Assembly (NCBI GenBank): GCA_945910005.1
Contig: OX246739.1
Coordinates: 36,590,608 to 36,654,607, forward strand
DNA from: Isoperla grammatica
Taxonomy: Eukaryota > Arthropoda > Insecta > Plecoptera > Perlodidae
Direction of reading: 5' to 3'
DNA length: 64,000 bases
This document shows, in pieces, positions 38,001 through 64,000 of the stretch. The notes below the pieces were generated by a model. The model was not told the DNA's origin, ran no database searches, and worked only from the letters and a program-made list of their open reading frames with translations. The translations under genes and the position numbers were made by a program. Positions within the stretch are counted from its first letter, which is position 1. Every line of letters begins with the position of its first letter.

Positions 38001-38958
38001 TTGTTAGCATTGATGTTATAGATTGCATACATTGTGAGTTCTGACTAATGGTTTGAACTCTCTATTGAATATCTATACCGTTATTACTAACACGTTTGTA
38101 GAAATAAATAACTAATAAAATATCTAATAACAGTTTCGTTAGCTGTTGTTAGTAAAAACGTATTCTGAGACCACCTTTGTCTTCTGCAGCCTGCTTCGCA
38201 ACGTGCAGTAACGAAATCGCAGTAATAATATTCCACGATAAAGATATTCTGTTACATTTGCCCTATCTTTTGAATGACAACCAATTGAAGGAATGCTGAT
38301 GTTTGATTCTGTAACCTGGGGACGAACAATCGTCTATTTTTTTGTGGTGAAATGTATAGGATCGTGAGGGGCTTATATTATCATTGTGCGTCCCGCAGTC
38401 CAAGTCTTTCATTGATTCTAAGTCCCAGTGATATCACGTTCCATGTGTGCACAGTGAAATCGCACAATCTTGTTACAAAGCTGGCATAAGCTTCACTGTG
38501 AATATTATAAAACATTAGATCCGACGTTTGTATTGCGCGGCCATAAGTTCGTGTCCCATCCATTGTTCCATTTGTGTTCATTGTGCGGCATTGTTATTGT
38601 TGGTCTTTTTAGAAAATAGTTTGTGCATATCTGAGAGTTTATGACATTTTGGTATAGGGTTACTTAGGCCCGGTTGTACTGTACAATCTCGGGATATCTA
38701 TTTATGCTTCATATAGAAACTGGGTTTCGTAAGGCAAATCCACGAATATGAAGCTTAGAACTACACTGAAAAAAGTATTCGGAGAATTTTACAAGCATGT
38801 GCTTGGCGTTTTTTGTGCCTAACACATGACTGTTAATATAATGTCCATGCTACTTGTAAAATCAATAGTCAGAATGTGATTTAACAAACAAAATCGTGAA
38901 TGACCATGGACATAAACGATGTGAAACCCCTACATTGTGCATGCAAAATTGTATAATA

Positions 38959-40312
38959 GTGCCAGAATCTGAGGGATATTATCTTGTAAATAAGCAAAGC
39001 AGGTGGGGTTGTAAAATTACAAACCTTCGACTGAATATTGCATATAAATTGCCGCTAATTTTCTTGACCTCAGTACTTGTATCATTACAGAACAGTGCCC
39101 GAATCTGAGGGATATTATCTTGTAAATAAGCAAAGCAGGTAGGCTTGTAAAATTACAAACCTACAACTGAATATTGCATGTAAATTGCCGCTAATTTTCT
39201 TGACCTCAGTACTTGTATCATTACAGAACAGTGCCCGAATCTGAGGAATATTATCTTGTAAATAAGCAAAGCAGGTAGGCTTGTAAAATTACAAACCTAC
39301 AACTGAATATTGCATGTAAATTGCCGCTAATTTTCTTGACCTCAGTAGTTGTATCATTACAGAACAGTGCCCGAATCTGAGGGATATTACCTTGTTAATA
39401 AGCAAAGCAGGTAGGCTTGTAAAATTACAAACCTACAACTGAATATTGCATATAAATTGCCGATAATTTTCTTGACCTCAGTACTTGTATCATCACAGAA
39501 TAGTGCCCGAATCTGAGGGATATTATCTTGTAAATAAGCAAAGCAGGTAGGCTTGTAAAATTACAAACCTTCAACTGTATATTGCATGTAAATTGCCGCT
39601 AATTTTCTTGACCTCAGGACTTGTATCATTACAGAACAGTGCCCGAATCTGAGGGATATTATCTTGTAAATAAGCAAAGCAGGTAGGCTTGTAAAATTAC
39701 AAATCTTCAACTGAATATTGCATATAAATTGCTACTAATTTTCTTGACCTCAGTACTTGTATAATTACAGAATAGTGCCCGAATCTGAGGGAAACTATCT
39801 TGTTAATAAGCAAAGCAGGTAGGCTTGTAAAATTACAAATTTACAACTGAATATTGCACGTAAATTGCCGCTAATTTTCTTGACCTCAGTACTTGTATCA
39901 TTACAGAACAGTGCCCGAATCTGAGGGATATTATCTTGTAAATAAGCAAAGCAGGTAGGCTTGTAAAATTACAAACCGACAACTGAATATTGCATGTAAA
40001 TTGCCGCTAATTTTCTTGACCTCAGTACTTGTATCATTACAGAATAGTGCCCGAATCTGAGGGATATTATCTTGTAAATAAGCAAAGCAGGTAGGCTTGT
40101 AAAATTACAAATTTACAACTGAATATTGCACGTAAGTTGCCGCTAATTTTCTTGACCTCAGAACTTGTATCATTACAGAACAGTGCCCGAATCTGAGGGA
40201 TATTATCTTGTAAATAAGCAAAGCAGGTAGGCTTGTAAAATTACAAACCTACAACTGAATATTGCACGTAAATTGCCGCTTATTTTCTTGACTTTAGTAT
40301 TTCAAAGCAGGT
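38959..40312. repeat. 136-bp satellite, ten copies, hairpin in each monomer
   Basis: The word GTGCCnGAATCTGAGG recurs at 38959, 39095, 39231, 39367, 39503, 39639, 39775, 39911, 40047 and 40183: ten units at exactly 136 bp with no length variation. The last unit fades at about 40310. Each monomer contains an inverted repeat, GTAGGCTTGTAA AA TTACAAACCTAC (12-bp arms, one mismatch). The left arm is nearly invariant, whereas the right arm varies (CCTAC, CTTC, TTTAC, CCGAC). No reading frame runs through. Confidence 0.97.
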
Positions 40313-49180: not shown

Positions 49181-49617
49181 CTGATGTGATTGGGTTGATG
49201 GATTGGAATGCAGCTTTACCAATCCGTACTTTTAAACTCATTATATTTTTTCAAGAATGTGATGAGCTTCAGGTTTATCTGCGGTGGGTTCCTTTGTTTT
49301 GCGCCACGCTTAACTCTGTTGCCTTCCGGCTCGATCAACAATATTTGCCTGGAAAAGATAAAGAGGTAGTAGTACTGTATTGTTAAAAGGTAGTAAAAAT
49401 ACAATGATGAATTAGGTACTGCAAAGAATTAGCTCATTAAATAATACAATATTGATGCAAGCATTAAAAAATAAAATGTTTCGAGTATTCCAAATTCCAA
49501 TTATTTTAGTTTTAATTCTAATAGATTTCTAAGTGGCAATTAGGATACTAAACGATCATTGATTATTAATGAAGCTACATGCTAAAATATGATTCAATAT
49601 CATTCTGAAAAAATAAA

Positions 49618-49742: not shown

Positions 49743-50283
49743 AAAACAATTGTTATTCAATAATTTATTTTCTCTTTAGATAGATTATCATATCTGTCAA
49801 CCAATGCATTATTTAGAAGTAGACTATTAGTATAGATAGACCACTAGCAATGGCTGGTATAATTAAACGTTTAACATTTAAACGGGCGCACGTCTTATTT
49901 TCTATTTCACATTTTTGCTTTTACATGTCTTTTGAATGGGAATGTGTTATATATGTATAGGCTACAGGTTATGTTGATAAGACGCCAATCGGCTGGAATA
50001 GTATAATGTAGGGATAGGATCGAACAGCTTACCTTTGTGTAAGATGACAAATTTTAGGAGTTGAAAGTAAACATTGAAGACACATAATACAAAAGTGATG
50101 GGACGTTTCGCTGTTGTTAAGTTAAGCTGTGTGTTAAGCTGTTGGATCCTATCTCTACATTATACTATGTATATACTAGGCTACAATAATAATATTGAAT
50201 TGGGTGTATCCAGGAGCACAAAAGCTCACCAAAATATTTGTTTATGTGCCGAAAATACGAATTATTTTCGAATGTAGGTATTG

Positions 50284-51207: not shown

Positions 51208-51370
51208 CTTTGTAAAAACTCCAATCCTGCGGCACCATCCGATGGATACTCCATGTTGAAGATAAAGTATGAGGCAATCATAAGAACCATCGCCTCATAG
51301 ATGGACAATGTGCCCCCAATCACATTGTTTTCCACCACCACATGTACCGCACATGTCTTGGGTAAACCAA
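51208..51370 (-). CDS. SAMD3-like gene, exon 6 (last one found)
   Basis: The exon runs from acceptor TTTCCAG to donor AAAG|GTAGGT, 163 bp, entering in phase 1 and leaving in phase 2. It encodes LPKTCAVHVVVENNVIGG, then LSIYEAMVLMIASYFIFNM and EYPSDGAAGLEFLQ. In the SAMD3-like family as I recall it, the equivalent segment is 'F.vc.eg......fl.al..lfa.yyvFNi.Y......tLEFiQR', so the match covers the whole exon. The family's final exon normally continues with a short conserved C-terminus (GxNP-type motif). I could not find it to the left, where several transposons intervene. The gene may be 3' truncated, or its last intron may be very long. Confidence 0.75.
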
Positions 51371-51917
51371 CTGGAAATATAGACCAAGAATAATATTATA
51401 TAAGTTACTACTTACATGCTCAGTACAACTGGACATACTAATTCAAAATGGAAAATAGAGGTTACAGCTCAGATGTGTTTGTAGTTTGTATTACACCCAG
51501 CATTTTATTTAGTTTATGAATTACAAAAACTAACAAAAAATAACTGTTGATAGCTATGGTAGAATGTATCAAATTAAACCACATTCTCAACCGGTTTAAA
51601 TAATTCGTCTGTTTACGTTACTCTGAAAGTTGAATGAAATCAGGCATCAATCAAGTAAGCTGTTTACTTTCCATCCAAAAGTGATGTGTGTGTATCCCAT
51701 TTAGCATCATTCTACGTGGCCTAGCAGGGAACTAATAATATGTATTTATAGCTTTCAATTTTTAAAATAGACTTTCAATTAAAATCCTTAGTAGATCATC
51801 CTAGAGATTGACTGCGACAATTACACTGGAACATGGTATACCTTTTTACTTCAACGGAACAAACTCAACGAGGTACAACAGAAATGGATAATAATGGCTA
51901 ATGCGACCGAGTTAAGA

Positions 51918-52283
51918 GAAAGGACTGCCGCCAATATTAAAACCGCGCAAAATTACAATTTTTTAATCATAACTCAATAATGCTACACCACATCAAAACA
52001 GTAAAAACACCTCTATTTGGGTTTTAAAAAACTGAATAATTCTTTAAAAAGCATCTGGATATCATAATTAGTACCGGTATGGGTGTTATTTGTACTTTAC
52101 TTAATTATACGAAGAAAATTCCAAATATCAACCCTGATAATTACATTAACACAAAATATTTTTTTCTTTCAAACCCAAATGGAGGCATGTTTTCACTTTT
52201 TCGATGTGGTTTAGCATTAATGAGATATGATTAAAAAACGTTAATTTTGCACGGTTTTAATATTGGCGGTAGTAATTCCTTTT
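51918..52283. mobile_element. Long-TIR foldback element, about 365 bp, in an intron
   Basis: Arms of about 100 bp are inverted repeats. The left reads CTGCCGCCAATATTAAAACC, and the right as reverse complement CTACCGCCAATATTAAAACC. The similarity runs on through a TTTTTTAATCATA stretch, a CACCACATC/AACCACATC match and CATTTGGGTTT-like ends. The central spacer is about 130 bp. It lies in the intron between SAMD3-like exons 5 and 6 and has no coding capacity. Confidence 0.8.
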
Positions 52284-53516
52284 AATGCAGACAAATAGTG
52301 CACAGTATAAGTCAGTAATCATAGCTCACTACGTAATTGCATGTTGAATTTCAATGACATGAATTTAAATAAATAAATAAATGTCAAATTGGAAAAAGTT
52401 GGGCCTTAAAGTAACATTATTTATATAGGAACAGATTTTGCAGGATCCTGCGTCATTGTAGAGCGTAACAAAAACCTCCGAGGTGCGTTGTACGATCATA
52501 CTTTATGCAGAGGATATATAGCCCGCGTCCAGAAATAATAATTAGTAGCACAATTGTCGCAATAATCGAGATCGCAATCGTAAACACCGAATCGGTAAAT
52601 CGTTGAAAATAATACCAGTCTATTAGACTCAAAAAAAGACCGCCTAAAAATGTATCTAAACTAAATCGCAATCATTGCTAATGGTATCGTAGTTGAGAAA
52701 GGTTGGTTATATTTTTTATTTTTCTACGAATGCTATTGCGATAACCGATGTGAGTAAGACAGAAAACACTGTTTGATGATTCCAAACACTACTATTTTGT
52801 CAAGACCCAAGAGGGTTGTGGATTAGACCTAGAACACCATGTTTTCACATTCTTCGCGGGTGTACTCGAATACACACTACTTTTACAGGAGGCCGTTATT
52901 GGGTGTATTCCCGATTACAACTATACAACTAGGATTGCAATACCTATTGCGATACTTGTGCGTAGGGCTTTACCAAAAATGGTACAACTACAATACTGGA
53001 CACTCGATGAAGTTAGCGGCGAATGAAAACCTAGAGGCAAGTTTTGACCCTACTCTTGAAAGCACCGTCTGGTGGAGGGAATCGCATATATGCGTACTAC
53101 TAAATTGGAATTTGCCGCAGTAGAGACAAACCTTGCCAGTAGGATCGCTGCTAAAAACGTTTGCCGCCGCAACAATGATAAAATTGGAAGGTGTCCCAGT
53201 AGGCAGTATTAAGTTAATCTTTTACAATATTTGGCTTTACATTTCTTATTTCTCAAGTTCTATACCTGGTTCAAAGGTTTCTATAACGTCCAAAAGGTTG
53301 GCAGCGGGATCCACGGTTTTTGTTTTTTTGTTGGCAGTGGTATCCACGGTTTTTGTTTTTTTTGTTTTTTGGCCATCTGAAATGAAATGTAGACATAAGC
53401 TTATGTTAGACATACATATTATAGGCATTATTATATTTCAAATAAAAGCTGAAATTTTGCAGATACTATAGAGTCAATAATGATTAAACACGTCTTAAAT
53501 AGTTAAAAAAAAATAA

Positions 53517-53637
53517 TGGCGTTTTCCAATGGCTGCGCTGGACCGTACTGGGTGTGCCTTTAGGAATTAAAACAACAATGCACAACAATAATATAAATGC
53601 ACCAGTGTGTACTGATGCAGCCCATTGGAAAACGGCA
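53517..53637. mobile_element. 121-bp MITE with TAA duplication, in an intron
   Basis: TGGCGTTTTCCAATGGCTGC on the left pairs with TGCCGTTTTCCAATGGGCTG (reverse complement) on the right. TAA flanks both ends (53514-53516 and 53638-53640), which fits a PIF/Harbinger-type MITE. Confidence 0.75.
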
Positions 53638-54679
53638 TAAGAGTGCCTACTAAAAACGTTACACTAATTAATAATCGTGAGACTGCAAATTTAAAATGCA
53701 TTATATTTCCTTCCCAAATATATAGGCTAACAATTTTTTAATCTAAACATTACGAAAAACTATTTATTGGGGAAATTCTGTGATCGGCGAAGATGCCTCC
53801 GGCAACTCACCCTGTCCCTCAAACCCCGCTTGCCTTGCATGCCACATAACTTGTGTTCCTCGTTACATACCGAACCCTCTCCGAAATTATTCCTACATCA
53901 CGCCACTGCTAGTGTGTATATGTATATATAAAAAAAGTTACACCATAGTTACTGGAAAATAATAAATATTTTTCTGAAACGAAATGGCGGCAAAATTTGA
54001 GGTGGCCATATTATAGTTCATTTTCGTACGGTCACGATAATTTAATTGCAATCTGATAAGTATTAGAGGCAGAAATTTCATTTGTATTGCTGTCTATAAG
54101 TAAAGTAACTATGGCAATGAAAAATGCACATGCACATCCGTTCTTATATTCAACAAAGTCGGGAAGTATAATAGCTTTGACAATTAAAAATATGTAAGCA
54201 TTGCACATTCAGGTTTTAAATTTTGTTTGTGGTTTTTAAGAACTTCTGGTTAGCATGTTCTTGGCTGTGCACATGCTCGCTTATCAACGCGTCACACAGA
54301 GCGTTTTCCTAGTTTTTAGATTCCTGTGACTATTTTCAATACAATAGGCCTACTAGTTTTTTGTGAACATTGTATTTGTGGGCAATGTATTTTAGAATAA
54401 GTACAGGGGTGGAAAGTGTGTGACTTTGTAGAACTCCAATGTTAAAAATCACGAAAATCGAGAACTTTGAAACAAGGTACAGTTTCTCGAAAACCAGCCC
54501 AGGAAGACCACTTTTTCTTGACGTATTGAAGTGAACCGTGACTACAAGTATACACAAATTTGGTAATTTTGAGTCGCAGCCGATTAACGCTTGAGCTACC
54601 TTAACTCATCTTTCTCACATATCTGATAAAAAGTAGTTTGTACACAAAAAGTAAAATACAATTATTGCTAAATACTTAC

Positions 54680-54749
54680 CCATCAGAGCAATGTATGGTG
54701 TTTTCGGAGCATCTGCATCGGCTTCTACCTCATCTACTGAGGTTGTTAC
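54680..54749 (-). CDS. SAMD3-like gene, exon 5
   Basis: A 70-bp exon between acceptor TTTGCAG and donor ATGG|GTAAGTATT enters in phase 0 and leaves in phase 1. It encodes VTTSVDEVEADADAPKTPY followed by IALM. The acidic linker then a short 'P.ia.mG' segment fits the loop between the helical and C-terminal parts of the family. It joins exons 4 and 6 without a frame break. Confidence 0.75.
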
Positions 54750-55166
54750 CTGCAAAGTAATGCATTCAGTTTTAAATTTAAAAATGAGTTTTTAGTACAA
54801 ATATATAAAATAATGTGGAAAAAACAAAACAGTAAGGTAATATGGTATAAAAGCAATAAGATCATTACCATAGTACAGTAATTTTAAAGATAGAAGAACA
54901 TAAGTGGTAGGGCCTACATAAGAGTATGTAATAAAATACATAATATAATTTATAATTATAACTCTTTGGTTTTAACGCAAACCCAATAAGTTCTGTAAGA
55001 TGAGTGTGTGCATCAATAAGGTGATATGAAGACCACTGGTCTAGACTCTAGAGGATTGGTGTATTTGGCATCTCAAGCAAATGTTGTCATTGATAGATAG
55101 TTACCTAAGCTGTTAAAACTCAACTTCTAATATAATATAAAAATGTTATTGAAAAAATAGACTCAC

Positions 55167-55451
55167 GTCATAGTGCCTAGTGTATGCCTCCTCATTTTGA
55201 TCCCAGAGGAAGCACAACACAAGAAACATGCCATATGCACTGTTTTGTGGCTCTTCAAATTGGCCACCAATGGTTTCCAGTATTTTTTTGGCTTCTGCCA
55301 CAGCACAACCCTTGTTTTTTTTCATTTTATCTTTTACTAAAGATTTCATGAATTGGTAGTAGGTATTGCCTTTTATTTTGAACTGTTCATTAGCTCTTGC
55401 CATCAAATTAAAACCCATCAGGCTTTCAAAATGCTGCATGAGGTACTCTCC
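55167..55451 (-). CDS. SAMD3-like gene, exon 4
   Basis: A 285-bp, 95-codon exon, phase 0 at both ends, with acceptor TATTTTCAG and donor GAC|GTGAGT. It encodes GEYLMQHFESLMGFNLM at its start and GMFLVLCFLWDQNEEAYTR near its end. In the family this follows directly after the 'RWPfLF' motif at the end of the previous exon (here RWPFLLQ|GEYLMQHFE), as 'WPYLF...L..HFE.L'. The segment is probably helical, and its biochemical role is not known to me. Confidence 0.8.
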
Positions 55452-55547
55452 CTGAAAATATAAAATCATCAAATAGGTATTAGGGTGTCTAAAGAGTAAA
55501 AAAGGGAAAACATCCACTTGGCAACATTACAAGTAAGGTTGCCCATC

Positions 55548-55938
<391 letters not shown>

Positions 55939-56008
55939 ACACACGTACAAACGTATTAGTTTAATGTTAAAAAGTATATTATTGACTTATTGTTATATAT
56001 TGCTTTAC

Positions 56009-56670
56009 CTGCAGTAGGAATGGCCATCGACCACGAAGATTCCTGACCAGCATTTTTGAATTGATGTCCATCCTTTGGCCTATGTATGTTAACTCCATGT
56101 AATTCTTCACCTTCCGTTTGTCATAATCTAACAGATCATGTTCTGCTAGAAGACTCTTCCTTTTGTCTTCAAGACTTGCCGCAGTTTCGTTGTTCGGCAA
56201 GTCTTCTGGTTGCCAATTTGGGCAACCGTACATTTGCTTTTTGGTAGGGCCTTTTGGTGTATTTTTATTTGTTGGCGCATCGATTAGGCCACCTTCATCT
56301 TCACCAAAGAGAGATGCTAATTTCCTCTTTTTGCTTAAAGAGTTAAGCCTGTTCAGATATGTTATTCTTAGTTCGAGTTGCCGTTTAAGGGAACTCCATC
56401 CACAACCTATGTTGTCCTTGAACGTGGCCGGATACTTTGTCACAATTTTGGAGGCCACTGCATTTAATATCTTTTCTTTCGGATATTTGGATATGTTATG
56501 AATGTCATCACAGAGCCTCCTGACCATCTCATTTCGAAGAGCCCCACTGCATGGGCGCTTTTCTTCCATGCATTTGAGAATTTGGTTCGGGAATTTGTGG
56601 TATGGTACCACATACAGGTCGATGGAGGTTGGTGTACCATTAACGTTCGATGACGTTGATGGTTGTGAAT
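56009..56670 (-). CDS. SAMD3-like gene, exon 3 (core domain)
   Basis: A 662-bp exon from acceptor TTTGTAG to donor CTGCAG|GTAAAG enters in phase 1 and leaves in phase 0. It begins with a Ser/Thr/Pro linker, then DLYVVPYHKFPNQILKCMEE. The core pattern 'R.eMVRrLcd.i......Yp......vA.kIv.KYPa.fkD.IG.Gw.SL..QL..Ri.ylnR' follows, typical of the SAMD3-like family recalled from fish and invertebrate proteomes. Next come a basic stretch (SKKRKLASLFG), a YGCPNWQPEDLP segment corresponding to the family's 'YGC..wqP..lP', a charged helical region (LEDKRKSLLAEHDLLDYDKR) and a terminal LRGRWPFLLQ. Agreement across the exon is strong. The molecular function of the family is unknown to me. Confidence 0.85.
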
Positions 56671-56697
56671 CTACAAATTAATAACACAGGTTAAATG

Positions 56698-57102
56698 TAG
56701 GGATGCACACGATAATCGATATTATCGTTCGATATTCGATATGCAATAAAATTTCGATAATCGATAATACAAATATTATCGAATGGTCTGATTTCTAAAA
56801 AAGCGGGTTCGTAAAGCATTATTTCGTTCTTCTCGGACCTTTCTAGTATTGAAATACTCAAAGATACTCCCAAAATACTAGGCCTCGGGCCTCGTAAAAT
56901 GTGATTATACTCTCAGCAGTGTCACGTCAGATGTGTCCACGTAATGTTGCCATATACTTATGTGCTCGATTAGGCAACATATCACTGAAACTGTAAAAGA
57001 TTACTTCAATTTTGTAAATTATTATCGTTCGATATTATCGATCGATAATGCAGTCATCTTTTCGATTGTCGATAGTTTTTATTTTATCGATGTTCATCCC
57101 TA
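56698..57102. mobile_element. hAT-type MITE, 405 bp, 27 bp from a splice acceptor
   Basis: TAGGGATG termini at both ends are flanked by a perfect 8-bp duplication, GTTAAATG (56690-56697 and 57103-57110). The subterminal DNA is packed with TCGATAAT/ATTATCGA words. It lies in the intron upstream of SAMD3-like exon 3, leaving only 27 intronic bases between its edge and the exon. Confidence 0.92.
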
Positions 57103-57379
57103 GTTAAATGTAATTACCAAAGTAGTGGTGGCAACCAATTAATCATTGACAAGCAGTTTCTAATTGTAAGTTTGTGTACTACAGTACTTTGTAGTACCTA
57201 TATGAGTTTCAATGGGCATTTCAAATTTCTTCAGACTTTCTTCCGAACCCAAGTGAGCCAAACGAGTGTAAAAACTCTAAAAAAATCTGATATGGAATAG
57301 TGCCTGTACTAATAAAGATGTATGTGTATTACATAATTATTAATTAATGGTAAAATAGTTCACTTTAATTTATGAAGGC

Positions 57380-57501
57380 TAAAGCGAGGTCCACAATAGC
57401 CCGGGAAGGAGCTTCCCGTTCCCGTTATTAGGCAATAATAAATCATAGCCAACTTTCCCGTTCCCGGAGCTCCTTCCCGGGCGATTGTCAACGCCGCTTT
57501 A
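57380..57501. mobile_element. Foldback MITE, about 122 bp
   Basis: TAAAGCGAGGTCCACAATAG on the left is matched by the reverse complement of the right end, TAAAGCGGCGTTGACAATCG. Both continue CCCGGGAAGGAGCT. It is nearly a single hairpin. The TA at each edge may be the target duplication. Confidence 0.8.
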
Positions 57502-57596
57502 AAAACTAAATCAATCAATATCGATCCCTATTACCAACAATTAAGTCGGTTAGGGGGTGAGATAATCTCACCCCATTCTTGGTAATAAAGCAATAA

Positions 57597-57862
57597 ATAA
57601 AAAAATATAAATGTATATTTGTTGCCTAGGCTTACCCAATCAGTAACAAAAATTGATTTGCATTGAGGGCCGTTATACAATTTATTATCTGTCTCGGTCC
57701 TAATACTTCTCCAAACTCACCATTTTACAATAGTGTGTCAGTATCATATTGATAGATTTATGTCGATGTTAGAAACAGAAAAACCCAGCTTGAACCGCAA
57801 ATTGAACCTTAGACCTTCTGTATTAGAAGCATGAATAAGCCCACATGGTTAACAAGCCCCAC
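57597..57862 (-). mobile_element. tRNA-like SINE, second diverged copy
   Basis: On the minus strand a tRNA-like head (about 57862-57786; B box GGTTCAATTTG) precedes a body ending CAAATCAATTTTTGTTACTG, then ATTGGGTAAGCC and an AT-rich tail. Head and tail both match the element at 30735-31175, but the body is shorter. Confidence 0.65.
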
Positions 57863-58130
57863 AAATTGACAAAAAATAATACTAAATGTAGGTATTTGTA
57901 TTTGTATTATTATTAAAACATCGACATATGCCGTAACTATTAATGTTAGTGAATAGTGATGTTTTGTGGCAGCAGGGTTGTATAATGATAATAATCTTTA
58001 ACTTAGTTACAATAATGTCAGGTTGAGTGAATGAGTGGGGGTTGTCTACCGATTTCTAGTATGATGATAAGATAATTTGATTAATTTTTGTTATAACAAA
58101 ATGTATGGGTAATATTTTGTGCCTAATTAC

Positions 58131-58217
58131 CAGGTGTTGAAGATGACAAACTTGGAGGCGTTTGTTGGCCTACTATGACCTTGTCCTTGGGGGTGGTGTA
58201 ACCATCCAGTACAGTTG
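58131..58217 (-). CDS. SAMD3-like gene, exon 2 (linker)
   Basis: An 87-bp exon with acceptor TTTCTAG and donor ACCTG|GTAATT, phase 1 in and out. It encodes TVLDGYTTPKDKVIVGQQ then TPPSLSSSTP. This is a Ser/Thr/Pro-rich linker between the SAM-like domain and the core domain, as expected of the family. The call rests on splice signals, phase and position, as the sequence itself is not conserved enough to identify. Confidence 0.65.
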
Positions 58218-58265
58218 CTAGAAAGCAAATTAAACAGTATTGTTTAGTAATCATTAGTGTGCTGT

Positions 58266-58425
58266 AGTCAAGTAACGGAAGTAACGCATTACTGTAACGA
58301 AATTACTTTTTCAGTAACGTGCGAGTAATCTTACAAAATTTTCAATGAATAACATAACGGAAAAGTAATTTCATTATAATTTGGTGTTAGTAAGCGTTAC
58401 TTTCGGCCATGCCCTATGCCCTTTA
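58266..58425. repeat. GTAACG-rich MITE-like sequence
   Basis: Multiple GTAACG/CGTTAC words (AAGTAACGGAAGTAACGCAT and later AAGCGTTACTTT) form imperfect inverted repeats. A related stretch (TAACGCATTACTGTAACG) occurs at about 45190-45207. Ends and target duplication were not resolved. Confidence 0.45.
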
Positions 58426-60525
58426 TTCAATCGGCCTGTATCCTGTATAAGGACAGCCAATTCGCTTATTTTTTAAATGCCAAATAAAATATGATATTAA
58501 AATTCATAAATGTCTAAAACTACACCTAAACAGAGCTTAAATTACCTCTCTTAATGAGCCTTTTCAAACTCCTTAAAATTTCCTCCTCTTTCCTCTGATA
58601 ACGTAAAATCAAAAGGAGACAAATGTTAATTTTAAAACTAATTTTTGAAAGTAATTTAATTAATTTTTCCATAAGAATTAACGTAGTTTAATTTTTGGAT
58701 AAGTAACTTTACATATCAATAGGGCACTTTCCTCAGAGATAAATATTGCTCATAGTACCTAAAAATGATAGATCCTTATTAACAAATAACTTGGATATAA
58801 TGTTTATGTCTGAGAAATGTATAGTTCCAATTCTATTAGCATTTAAAGTTTGACATTTTTTCCTGCATTGTGAAACGGTCCGTGACGTAAAACGTTGGCA
58901 AACAACACATTTTATTAATGAATTTATTGAAGTTCTTTGGAATTTACAACTATCTCACGTGTTAGAACAGCACTTCATTGTTGTCGATGTTCAGATGTTT
59001 TATTTTAAAACCACAATATTTTCAAATATTTTTTAAAAGTAGCCTACCGTATTGCAATTATTGAACATTACCGCATAAATTATTGTTCACAAGTTATTAT
59101 TGAACATTTTAGAAACAAATTTGATATGAAACATGCTATTGTGAGTGAAATTATTAGCAAAACAGCATTTCTTGATATGATTGGGTGGTTGTGATCCTAA
59201 CGTTTAACGTAATTCCCCGTTTTTTCCGCCAAAACGATGTGTGAAAGTTTCGGGTGATTTTTATCAATGAAATCTATTCCAAAACGCACACATATTGATG
59301 TGATTCTATATAGAAAATGATATTCAACTAGATGGAACCATAAAAAATCAATCGAAAATTCCCTATGGTATTACATTTTGACTGAAGTAGTAAGCAATGT
59401 AGTTTCACTACTTTTAAAAAGTAATTTACCCAGGTCTGTTAACTACAGTATACCCACTAGGCATATAGCCATATTTTGGCTTAATCGTTACATTTTCGTT
59501 GCGTATATATTAAGAGGCATATTCCCTATCATAGATATAATTGCCACCAATAGTAAAAATTATATTATTGTTTTAAAACAAGTTTGAACCAATACTAATT
59601 TACTTAATTTGGTTGATTTGGTATGGCAATTTCGAAACGTTTAAACATGCATGACCTATAGAGCTAGACTACAGAGGTTTCGATTTCGAACGAACATGTA
59701 AAGTGACAAAAAGTAATTACTGGTAAGTTTTAATTTATATTAGGCATTGTTAACATTCAACAAAAAATATGAGCTTATTGTTTTCACATTAATACTTACC
59801 GTACTTAATACAAAAATTAATACTTTGTGTAACAGGGAATACAACTTTGAATTCAGGATATTCTGACACATTTTTGGCATATATTACTTCACTTAACCAA
59901 GATTAATGGAATATTTATATTTATGCATGGTAGGCCTACTATTGGAAAAATAAGTGGGCTCTTCTATCGTATAAATTATACTTTCAAATAATCATGCATA
60001 GGTTTTGAAAAACCTACAGCACGAATCTGTTTGACACAATGTTCAACTTATACCCACAAAATACAACAAACACAAGTTAGTTGAAATTATGTTTGTAATT
60101 ACTAATTTTATAAAAAAATTGGTTTGCAACACCAGTTTAAAAAGCGTTTAGAAATTAAAAGATTCAATTTAATATTAAATAATTTAATTTTGTTGCATGT
60201 AATTTTTGAACTAACTTTGTTTGCTAATTAATGATATTGATATATAAATAAGATGAAGACTAAACAAAATGGGATATCAAATTATGTTCATTGTTAGTAT
60301 CTGTGAATGACGACTTAGATGTGGCTCTGTAATAATCGTCGAAATTGTATTGACTAAAATTTACCCATTGCTTTGTTCAACTTTAAATGACCATTTAAAT
60401 ATTCATCATCATTACTTATTGATAATTAATATCAACTGGTGTGCCCAGCACATCAGAAATCTAATTAAAAATGCATAGAAACTAGTTGCACTGGGCTAGT
60501 ATGATTGATACTATGGCAGACTTAC

Positions 60526-60749
60526 GTTTGAACATCTTCTGTGCCTCTCTGATGATTATTCTTGCTTGAATTGGCTTCAACGTAGGTTGAAGATCCTCGC
60601 AAGTTACCAGTTCAAGGTGAGACATCTCGGTAACCCCGAGTGTCTCCACGAGAAGCTCCCGTAGCTCATCTCCCGTAGCTCATGTTTTATGTTATCAATA
60701 TTTTTTAAATGTTTTTTAAAAAACATTATCACCTCATCAGTACCGGTAT
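60526..60749 (-). CDS. SAMD3-like gene, exon 1 found (SAM-like domain, frame broken)
   Basis: A 224-bp exon runs from acceptor TTTTTTCAG to donor AAAC|GTAAGT. Its second half encodes LRELLVETLGVTEMSHLELV, then TCEDLQPTLKPIQARIII, a SAM-like helical pattern ('...lt.eDL.p.lkpiqaRkl...') that opens the SAMD3-like family. Its first half is open in a different frame (TGTDEVIMFFKKHLKNI). The two halves are separated by a perfect 14-bp tandem duplication (60656-60669 and 60670-60683), which shifts the frame and leads to a stop. Discounting 14 bp makes the exon phase 1 in and phase 1 out, matching exon 2. The exon therefore looks intact in ancestry and broken in this sequence. A start at the internal Met of TEMSHLE would escape the lesion but lose half the domain. 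Confidence 0.7.
60656..60683. repeat. 14-bp tandem duplication in the SAM-like exon
   Basis: CTCCCGTAGCTCAT occurs twice head to tail. It is frame-disrupting in the minus-strand exon that contains it. Confidence 0.95.
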
Positions 60750-61143
60750 CTGAAAAAAATGTAAGCACACATTTAATTTATCATAAAAGGGTACAACCAT
60801 TAAAGAAGTAACTAACATTCCATACACATAAAATATATAGATTTATACAGGTTTTCATGTAAACCATCTGAATCTTTTACTGTAAATGCCATATTAACCA
60901 TGGGTTGGATCTTTTATGACAAAACTCACATTTGAATTTGAAGTGCAAACAACATTTACATTCGTGTATGGTCTGTATCAAGCCCAAGTTGTTGAATTCT
61001 GGTGATTAGCCACACATGGGATGTTTGGCACTGTGATATGTTTTTGCCTTAAGAACGAAGCTGGTATAGCTCCACGTTAAAAAACACACAAAATGTTCAT
61101 ATTTTGATTATATCTCAAGAATGCACCTCAAAATCGAAAAATA

Positions 61144-61523
61144 TCTGAGTCAATGGCAGACTGTGGTTTGGTAAGCCCTAGAGACTGAATGATAAATGTA
61201 ACATATTATTATAATCAGCAGGGTAGTGGTTTCAGCAGGTGGCCAGTGCCAAGTCGAAAATTGTGCCCGTTACTGCAGGTACAAAATTGGTACTTATGGA
61301 TTCTTCTTTATAAATAATTAATACGTGTTTCACCATTTTGTGTATCACCAATGGTACAAAAACCACCACCAAACCACGTGAGCGAAGCCACGGCGGGTAC
61401 TACAGACTGCTAGTTAGTAATACAACTGCTATAGAAATAAAACCATACTGATTATAATGTTAGATACATTTACCATTTAGTCTGTATAGGGCTTACCAAA
61501 CCACAGCCCGCTGTTGACTCGGA
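61144..61523. mobile_element. MITE, 380 bp, TA duplication
   Basis: Inverted repeats of about 65 bp: TCTGAGTCAATGGCAGACTG on the left, TCCGAGTCAACAGCGGGCTG (reverse complement) on the right, both continuing TGGTTTGGTAAGCCCTA. TA flanks both edges (61142-61143 and 61524-61525), which suggests a Tc1/mariner-type non-autonomous element. It lies between the transposase-like ORF and the SAM-like exon. Confidence 0.8.
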
Positions 61524-61684
61524 TAAGAATAACTTAGCAAAAATGATTTGGCCGCATATAATTCAATAATTGAACGCTTCAAATCGACGACCAGACGAAC
61601 CAAACGTTGTACGGTATGCACCCATAGTAAAAAAGAAATAAAAACGATTAGAAAATATAAATTGAATAATAAAACTTTTTTTAC

Positions 61685-61729
61685 CTGCTCCTCCATGAAA
61701 TATTGTATGCTGCTGATGTCAAATGTCAT
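61685..61729 (-). other. Small ORF start overlapping the transposase stop
   Basis: The transposase-like frame ends in TGA at 61731-61729, and the A of that stop begins an ATG (TGATG). The new frame reads MTFDISSIQYFMEEQ and meets a good donor, CAG|GTAAAA, at 61685. It could be the first coding exon of the downstream gene, reached by splicing or reinitiation. However, this donor is phase 0, whereas the SAM-like exon needs phase 1, so at least one more exon would be required. It may also be chance. Confidence 0.25.
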
Positions 61730-64000
61730 CAGACGTCTATTTCATACCCTGGAGACGAAGACGTATCAAACGCAAATTTTGGTACTAACACTTCTCTTCC
61801 TTGGAAGTCATACAGCGGATAGTTTGTGTAGTCTGTTAGACTATTTGCTTGCATGACAATGACATTATTTTTGTCATGCACTTCGTATAGTTGGATGTTT
61901 GGTATTAACTCTCCATATGATGCTTTCATGATAAGGAAAAGGTCACCATTATCGTTCACCAGTATTAGAATGATCCTTCCTAGTGTTAGGCTCGATAGGT
62001 GGCATTCTACAATAACATATGTGTTGACTTTATACTGTATTCCTCTAAAGGTTGCTTTTGTTCCAACTTGCGAATCAATTTTTTCTAATCCATGAGTAGC
62101 GATAGCTAATTGGATGTCTTCGTCATATAAACTTTTAGCAGACAGGTAGCTAACGAAATTGTCACATACAGTGTTACAATCTGAAAATAAACCATTTATA
62201 CTGTATAGAGCTTGAAGGTACTGGTGTTTTGTTGCCAAGGTTTTGGTTATATTCTTGAAACATTTCGCTCGTTTTGCACACTCTACAAAGTATGAATGTT
62301 TAGATTCGAATCTTAAAGTAAACACTCTGATTAGCGGTCCGAACTGTAAGGCTAGTCGTGCATAATGGCTTAAAAAGTGGTGTTTTGGTCGTAGTTTGGT
62401 GCCCGGAAATAGAGCTTTTCTCGTTTCAAGATAACATCTTATTTGGTAATCCATGTAAGCCAATTGAGATTCTCCCGTTACTGGTGCAGTAACAAAGCGC
62501 ACTATCTCAATTAGCAAAAGAACCATTTGCCAAACGGGATCCTCCAAACCTACACTTTGTTCAACTTTGTGCCCTATTAAAAGTGGCAAAAATCTTAGGA
62601 AATTCCAGTTTTGAACTGCATGGCCCTTCAACCTATAACAGTTGTGCTTTATTTTTGAGGGTTTGTCGTGTGTATCTGGGCCCTGGAAACGAGTTTGGGC
62701 GATCCTTCTGTTGATGTATTCATATGTGAACGCCTTTTCTTCCTTGATGAAGTAGCTAAGGACCAACGGAATATCATATTGAATAACTCCTTCGAAGATG
62801 TCGTGGGCTAAACATGGGGGTAAACCTGACTCAACATTAAAATGTAGCAGTTGGTTTAAGAGCGCGTGTGACTTAATACCCTTTACATTGTTGGCTTTGG
62901 GATCCGTATTTAGAGAGTTCTGCCTTGCATATTCCGTGTTCGCTTCCTTAGTACGCGTATCTGCCACATTATTTCCGTTGTGGAAGGAGACTAGGTCTAT
63001 TTCGCAGTATCTGCAGAAATATGTAGCACCGAAACTCTCACACTGGCCTGCCATTGCGTGGCTCCCTAAATTATCCCCCAACACCGCTGATAGTATAACT
63101 GGCACATTTACTCCACTAGGACCGACACATATTCCATTTTCTTCTAGGTCCTGGAGATCCATCAACAGTCGCTTTAACACTTTTTCCTGAGTGAAGTATG
63201 TAAAGTCCGTTTGCTTGCAGAACATAATCAACTGCATTTGATCGATTTTAGACCTATTCCAAACGTGGAGATTCCCTATTGTATAGTAGAACGCAAGAAT
63301 TTTATGGAGTCCGCGTCCCGCCCCCAAGGGGTTAACAATCTCAAAAGCGTCTTGATACAAAATTAATTGTATGGCAGTTCTATCCTTACCAAGTACAGAG
63401 TGATTTTTGAAATGACTGCCATCTTTCAAATCGCGTAAGGTTCCATCTGGTGATCTGGAACGACAAGACGTGTTTTCTTCATACTGTTGCAAAACAGTGG
63501 GATCAGCAAGAAATTTGTGTAAAGTGTCACGTATAGGGACATAATGGTAATGTCTTTTCTGATTGTTTTCATTCAATCCTAAGCTTATTGCTTGAGGGGA
63601 AACAAATTCAAACAATTCTTGGTAAAGTTTGAATCTTGTATACATGGAACGGAGCTTGCTGTTAGGGCCATGCATACTAACCAACCCGTTGACAAATATA
63701 GTTTTCAGCCTTACTACATCGATAGTATTACCGCCATTATTTTCTAATGATGACAGTACATTCTTGAGCGTTAAATCGCTTGCCTGTTCTATGAGGGCAC
63801 GGTACTTCTCAAATATGACCTGAGTAGTTTTAGAAGATACATGATGTTTAGCCAAGAGGGTTAGATAAAACTCAGCCAACGATCTCTCCAACGTCTCGTC
63901 TTCGTTCATATTGGAAACATTATTTTCTATTTCCATATCATCTCTTGCATCGTCTACCGCAGCATTGCAATCATTATAATCAGGCATACAGTCATCGATG
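61729..64000 (-). CDS. CACTA/EnSpm (TNP2)-like transposase, 5' end beyond window
   Basis: A frame of at least 752 codons, uninterrupted, is open to the right edge; the ATG at 63987 is the first seen but may be internal. Motifs in order: an acidic N-terminus (about 1-35); LILYQDAFEIVNPLG (about 208-222), matching the 'L..DGFNPF' region of TNP2-type transposases with candidate catalytic Asp213; SAVLGDNLGSH (about 300-310) with candidate Asp305; a CxxC knuckle, FCRYCE (325/328); LPPCLAHDIFEGVIQYD (about 389-405); LKGHAVQNWNFLRFLPLLIG (about 453-472); and PKHHFLSHYARLALQFGPL followed by FESKHSYF (about 534-568), resembling the DUF4218 region of CACTA elements. I know similar animal proteins as 'uncharacterised', some with C2H2 fingers upstream, which would lie outside this window. 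The intact frame suggests a recent transposon copy or a domesticated gene. The SAMD3-like gene follows in the same orientation. Confidence 0.8.
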   Translation of the reverse strand, partial: IDDCMPDYNDCNAAVDDARDDMEIENNVSNMNEDETLERSLAEFYLTLLAKHHVSSKTTQVIFEKYRALIEQASDLTLKNVLSSLENNGGNTIDVVRLKTIFVNGLVSMHGPNSKLRSMYTRFKLYQELFEFVSPQAISLGLNENNQKRHYHYVPIRDTLHKFLADPTVLQQYEENTSCRSRSPDGTLRDLKDGSHFKNHSVLGKDRTAIQLILYQDAFEIVNPLGAGRGLHKILAFYYTIGNLHVWNRSKIDQMQLIMFCKQTDFTYFTQEKVLKRLLMDLQDLEENGICVGPSGVNVPVILSAVLGDNLGSHAMAGQCESFGATYFCRYCEIDLVSFHNGNNVADTRTKEANTEYARQNSLNTDPKANNVKGIKSHALLNQLLHFNVESGLPPCLAHDIFEGVIQYDIPLVLSYFIKEEKAFTYEYINRRIAQTRFQGPDTHDKPSKIKHNCYRLKGHAVQNWNFLRFLPLLIGHKVEQSVGLEDPVWQMVLLLIEIVRFVTAPVTGESQLAYMDYQIRCYLETRKALFPGTKLRPKHHFLSHYARLALQFGPLIRVFTLRFESKHSYFVECAKRAKCFKNITKTLATKHQYLQALYSINGLFSDCNTVCDNFVSYLSAKSLYDEDIQLAIATHGLEKIDSQVGTKATFRGIQYKVNTYVIVECHLSSLTLGRIILILVNDNGDLFLIMKASYGELIPNIQLYEVHDKNNVIVMQANSLTDYTNYPLYDFQGREVLVPKFAFDTSSSPGYEIDV

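Follow-up and report, generated by a model that had tools for sequence, protein, structure and literature searches.

Do a transposase gene and the multi-exon gene directly behind it make up one mobile element, or are they merely neighbors? We asked this of a 64,000-nt stretch of Isoperla grammatica contig OX246739.1 (hereafter, the window), where an original prediction had placed a TNP2-like transposase next to a SAM-like gene and proposed that the two are the analogue of the two-protein pair of CACTA transposons. The pair is real, it is widespread in the host genome, and in a sister family, F2, it lies inside a mobile-looking element. We consider it likely that this pair supplies the coding genes of a single lineage of large CACTA-like DNA transposons in animals. 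The linkage of the genes across the host genome and the termini shared by the F2 copies both support the proposed analogy.

Both genes lie on the minus strand, about 1 kb apart and with the transposase upstream, which bears out the predicted tandem, co-oriented arrangement. The transposase open reading frame (TNP2-like, CMC-type) occupies 61729..64000 and runs past the window edge, beyond 64000. It matches the transposase profile with an expectation (E) value of 2.6e-244. It had been called intact, and the whole frame is indeed open, with 920 codons in the genome copy (909 counted from the first Met) and C2H2 zinc fingers at an N-terminus encoded outside the window. What did not hold is that the window contains all of it.

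The SAM-like gene has seven exons, beginning about 1 kb downstream of the transposase frame and all on the minus strand. Exon A (60526..60749; profile E 0.0075) encodes the SAM-like N-terminal part, exon B (58131..58217) was placed by splice sites and phase only, and exon C (56009..56670; E 3.8e-34) is the best-conserved part. Exons D (55167..55451; E 0.075), E (54680..54749; E 6.3, placed by splice phase and order) and F (51208..51370; E 1.4e-5) follow, the last ending ...LEFLQ at the donor AG/GTAGGT. Exon G (49216..49348) closes the gene with a TAA stop and is conserved in two sister families of the host genome. Exons A-F are preceded by AG and followed by GT, and exon G has AG before it and TAA at its end. 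The gene is therefore multi-exon, as predicted, while its predicted end at 51208 was wrong, since exon G reaches 49216. Exon A is also frameshifted, by a 14-bp perfect tandem duplication (60656..60683, minus strand); reading from just past it meets no stop for 509 codons, up to that of exon G. The duplication thus spoils the partner gene, while the transposase frame has stayed intact. With an open transposase frame and a frameshifted partner, the window copy is probably a decaying one.

We searched the host genome (874 Mb, 603 contigs) with both genes. With the transposase, 59 out of 350 candidates were scored and 59 matches listed, an incomplete list; 43 of the 59 had no inner stop, and 34 of the 59 combined this with an open frame of 850 or more codons. 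The exon C query gave at least 150 matches. Merging left 57 transposase loci and 130 partner loci. A partner lay downstream, on the same strand and within 12 kb, at 44 of the 57 transposase loci; it was upstream on the same strand at one and on the opposite strand at none. When the loci were shifted by 30 kb to 1 Mb in 2000 trials, this arrangement arose 0.63 times on average and three times at most. The count without eight small contigs was 37/49. Counted from the partner loci, at least 47 of 130 have a listed transposase near, and this is a lower bound because the transposase list is incomplete. These data indicate that homologues of the two genes are linked, as the original prediction had anticipated.

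Copies of families F1 and F2 repeat this order. We read four F1 copies at length (one cut by a contig end) and two of the five F2 copies, and SAM-like exons follow the transposase in 6/6. Identity over the main aligned blocks is 97.2-99.97% in F1 and 99.5-99.9% in F2, and the C7 copy of F2 matches a third F2 copy at 99.6% over 9.1 kb upstream. The two F2 copies diverge exactly past ...TTTTTCTACAGTG. The F2 right terminus, CACTGTAGAAAAATTATTGG (20 bases), is found exactly at five places, which are the five F2 copies, and with one or two mismatches at 10 further places, versus 3 for a reversed control. It stands 10,772 bp past the transposase match at each copy (by subtraction). The left terminus, CACTGTGAAAAAAATATG... 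(in full CACTGTGAAAAAAATATGTATAAATATACC), matches exactly at all five of these copies and at two places besides, versus 0 for the control. Both termini begin CACTG, and 14 of their first 17 bases agree by eye. These ends have the 5'-CAC..GTG-3' or CA..TG form of CACTA/EnSpm elements, seen here in sister family F2 only. The partner match lies between the transposase and the right end at 5/5 copies, so that the CACTG termini enclose both genes; repeats enclosing only one of them were not seen. The five elements measure 44,566, 45,191, 49,443, 49,898 and 50,925 bp, and their flanks are different at every copy.

Subterminal repeats at both ends are characteristic of CACTA elements, maize En/Spm included. 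In the one F2 copy checked, that on C7, an array of 134 bp x 12.8 lies just inside the left end and another of 132 bp x 10.7 inside the right. The two arrays have short motifs in common, in inverted orientation.

Several further features of the F2 copies deserve mention. In the C7 copy (C7:35690299-35735489), the only frames of at least 170 codons within 45 kb belong to the two genes; about 30 kb of the copy lies upstream of the transposase. Of the two additional left ends, one (C7:35679937) lies 10 kb upstream of the copy on C7 and the other, at C2:24886483, stands alone with no listed transposase; they are possibly nested or non-autonomous copies. An origin of the C7 and C231 copies as haplotigs only was considered and dropped because the copies on C1, C12 and C507 share the same ends.

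The model of the window transposase resembles RAG1 and Transib in fold. The AlphaFold prediction, from 73 aligned rows, has a mean predicted local distance difference test score (pLDDT) of 90.6 and a predicted template modeling score of 0.89. A Foldseek search of the PDB gave 46 matches at E<=0.001, every one of them RAG1, a lancelet RAG-like protein or Transib. Six residues (D217, D309, C329, H541, H545 and E565) are unchanged in 73/73 rows, C332 is kept in 72/73, and H540 is kept in 72 with a gap in the remaining row. The window protein has spacings of 20 (D309-C329), 208 (C332-H540), 5 (H540-H545) and 20 (H545-E565); the corresponding RAG1 spacings are about 19, 207, 5 and 20. Across the 73 rows, D309-C329 is 20 or 21 and C332-H540 is 183-291, with the last two spacings constant. 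A first reading of the model took E403 as the catalytic glutamate and was dropped, as CxxC and HxxxxH lie between D309 and E565. We prefer E565 because these motifs precede it and the spacing resembles that of RAG1. The protein thus has the D, D and E of CACTA/EnSpm (CMC or CMCT) transposases, and the C(2)C and H(3-4)H motifs fall between its second D and the E. According to the sections consulted of Kojima 2025 (PMC12730594), these two motifs are common to EnSpm, Transib and RAG1. The model shows a predicted RAG1/Transib-like fold with near-invariant D-D-E and zinc ligands.

Relatives of the transposase are spread across animals. Among 7991 candidates scored, 167 were found at E<=0.001, and 120 of these were listed; names and closest match come from those listed. 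They include proteins of fish, sea cucumber, feather star, Hydra, ticks, thrips, ant, wasp and tunicate, and the closest relative among the matches listed has 56% identity. One relative, P0097 of Hydra vulgaris, carries an N-terminal Herpes_teg_N domain (Pfam PF04843) at E 7.4e-10, above the cut-off, possibly another accessory domain in the transposase lineage. A quick tree built from 110 proteins puts the window protein with P0001 (support 100) and next with three other proteins (support 100), far from a fish clade containing two models in which transposase and SAM-like sequences are fused. Transposases on both sides of a deep split in this tree thus have the partner, and the pairing would therefore appear, from these sequences, to be old. 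Alternatively, the partner may have been captured independently.

A fused fish model was the route to the partner family. The spliced SAM-like protein of the window, used as a direct protein query, gave no match at E<=0.001. The second domain of a fused Leuciscus chuanchicus model (P0074), itself a transposase relative, found 53 proteins, of which 52 are named, all from fish. A profile built from 33 of the 53 matches window exons A, C, D, E and F in order on the minus strand. The last exon was not found with a fish tail profile, and exon G was later found via the two sister families. No relatives were confirmed in viral contigs (112 pattern matches) or in bacterial and archaeal genomes (56 pattern matches).

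In the fish, 5 of the 53 SAM-like models are joined to transposase sequence, which is always N-terminal to the partner. The five come from Coilia grayii, Leuciscus chuanchicus, Amphiprion percula, Scomber scombrus and Poecilia latipinna, and the part of the transposase that is joined differs among them. As gene predictions, these models establish that the two are adjacent and in which order, and are no more than suggestive of splicing. Of the 53 models, 18 have one end drawn out into a long extension. The partner is absent from all 119 of the remaining listed transposase relatives; many of them come from short metagenome contigs, which could hardly reveal a spliced partner.

We looked for the ends of the window copy itself. 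A tandem array of 136 bp x 9.9 lies at 38958..40299, and 194 bp outside it, at 38764..38784 on the plus strand, is CACTGAAAAAAGTATTCGGAG, which ranks joint second of 255 CACT[A/G] sites in likeness to the F2 ends. By analogy with F2, the array is a candidate subterminal array and CACTGAAAAAAGTATTCGGAG a candidate 3' terminus of the window copy. The first 11 bases of the F2 terminus, with 1 mismatch allowed, gave 2 matches in the window versus 1.56 by chance. Pairing CACT[A/G] sites around the window copy with the 10 kb upstream (12/14 bases) gave no terminal repeats. The base triplet before the seven F2 left ends is CTA at 4/7 and CAA at 2/7, and the triplet before the window candidate end (38761-38763) is also CTA, a possible target preference.

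Other features lie in and around the window pair. A (CA)198 microsatellite occupies 55549-55944, inside a SAM-like intron. Three short foldback inverted repeats, resembling miniature inverted-repeat transposable elements, lie within or beside the pair at 61142-61525, 51912-52285 and 49998-50168. On C6, the window pair has a copy that covers parts of both genes, at 97% identity over matched blocks. This copy breaks off inside the transposase frame and at the microsatellite, and was read as two stretches 4 kb apart. Elsewhere in the host genome, SAM-like exon matches cluster at C1 98.3-99.1 Mb, C1 104.6-104.9 Mb and C17 7-21 Mb. Most matches in these clusters have no listed transposase near, and the clusters are possibly element graveyards or free-standing genes.

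A number of results weigh against assigning the pair to a CACTA-like transposon. A target-site duplication of 2-5 bp is expected of CACTA/EnSpm elements, and one of 2-4 bp had been named as a check; 0/5 F2 copies had a 3-bp duplication, with two readable bases to judge by at one of them, and 1/5 had a 2-bp duplication (TA). Because of this failure, we term the element CACTA-like and not a proven member of the group. Exchange between near-identical F2 copies could hide such a duplication. Two of the five F2 copies are on small contigs. In the window, the F2 terminus has 0 matches at up to 3 mismatches, and neither the termini of the window copy nor those of F1, whose ends were not reached, were found. 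The window protein has no match to Pfam PF02992 (Transposase_21, tnp2), a further point against canonical CACTA status; at E<=0.1, this family matches 5/20 alignment rows, with the window among the 20 and without a match, and the best value is 0.00038. D400 and E403 are as invariant in the 73 rows as E565, and because of this our choice of E565 rests on ligand order and spacing. A partner match within 12 kb is missing at 12/57 transposase loci, 4 of which have a frame of at least 850 codons and no inner stop, and no listed transposase is near 83/130 SAM-like loci. The SAM assignment of the partner N-terminal part is also weak. Pfam SAM_TNK matches this part at E 0.0034, below the cut-off, and 8/32 fish members match at E<=0.1. 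A model of the zebrafish member P0124 (mean pLDDT 79.2) gave no PDB match at E<=0.001 in Foldseek; its best SAM match, a weak one, was 1ow5 (probability 0.72, E 3.2). The name SAMD3-like is a putative label.

Could the partner be cargo, a host family captured by an ancestral element and without a role in transposition? The SAM-like loci with no listed transposase near would fit such an origin, as would 13 of the 18 long-extension fish models, which have no transposase match. However, families with transposases only 36-39% identical keep the pairing, it is present in fish too, and exon C reads through without an inner stop in copies that include all five of F2. We therefore regard cargo as unlikely. 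The F1 and F2 blocks could also have spread by segmental duplication and not by transposition, with the CACTG ends incidental. Yet all five F2 copies begin and end at the same two termini in different flanks, a pattern that duplication would not yield, and arrays with shared inverted motifs lie inside both ends of the copy checked. Blocks as long as 45-51 kb, the missing 3-bp duplication, and the one extra and one lone F2 left end leave this explanation some small credence, and we hold it to be quite improbable. That a transposon landed by chance upstream of unrelated SAM-like genes is contradicted already by the 44 of 57 loci in one arrangement where 0.63 are expected, and by the F2 termini shared around both genes. 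Although both families are repetitive in the host genome, we give this explanation next to no probability.

If the two genes are the coding pair of a transposon, its mechanism might run as follows. The zinc fingers of the transposase would bind the ends or the subterminal arrays, and its catalytic residues would cut. The SAM-like protein would assemble at the ends or regulate the element, as TnpA does in maize Spm, and would perhaps be made from the same transcription unit via alternative splicing. Both this partner role and the oligomerization of its SAM-like part are conjectural. A bolder proposal is that the SAM-like family supplies the second protein long missing from deuterostome CACTA elements. 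It would be ancient, would have co-evolved with its RAG1-fold transposase and would polymerize on subterminal arrays, joining ends up to 51 kb apart, and some free-standing animal members would be domesticated from such elements. We regard this as possible, if doubtful.

What is new here is a large CACTA-like element with a SAM-like partner. We found no report of a SAM-type or SAMD3-like transposon protein in the literature searched, which included parts of PMC9004415, PMC9587614 and PMC12730594 and did not cover Repbase. A conserved, recognizable partner would make the accessory role testable in fish and other animals, and many multi-copy genes now called uncharacterized would be explained as transposon genes. 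A RAG1-fold recombinase with a partner would add an example beside RAG1-RAG2. The size of the element is striking, given that the two genes alone have frames of at least 170 codons in the 45-kb C7 copy.

One comparison is with maize En/Spm, which encodes TnpA and TnpD and resembles our element in its CACT-starting ends, two proteins, a partner downstream and spliced variants (PMC1636069, in the parts consulted). In contrast, the elements here are 45-51 kb long with no 3-bp duplication found, and their partner is likened to TnpA by arrangement, not by sequence. An animal relative of CACTA, SmTRC1 of Schistosoma mansoni (DeMarco 2006), is likewise described in those parts of PMC1636069 as a transposase frame followed by a second downstream frame, with alternatively spliced messages. 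It differs in that its own ends begin CCC and its own 2-bp duplications are present in 7/14 copies, and its authors report there that no other element from animals or fungi yielded a relative of its accessory protein. Kolobok lineages, as portrayed in the sections consulted of PMC9587614, are also DNA transposon lineages distinguished by an accessory gene, and they belong to another transposase superfamily with other accessory proteins. RAG1-RAG2, ProtoRAG and Transib share with our transposase model the fold, the D-D-C2-H2-E order and near-equal spacing, whereas identity in the Foldseek alignments is 9-13%, the partner protein is another one, and the ends are different. ProtoRAG, too, carries two genes in one element.

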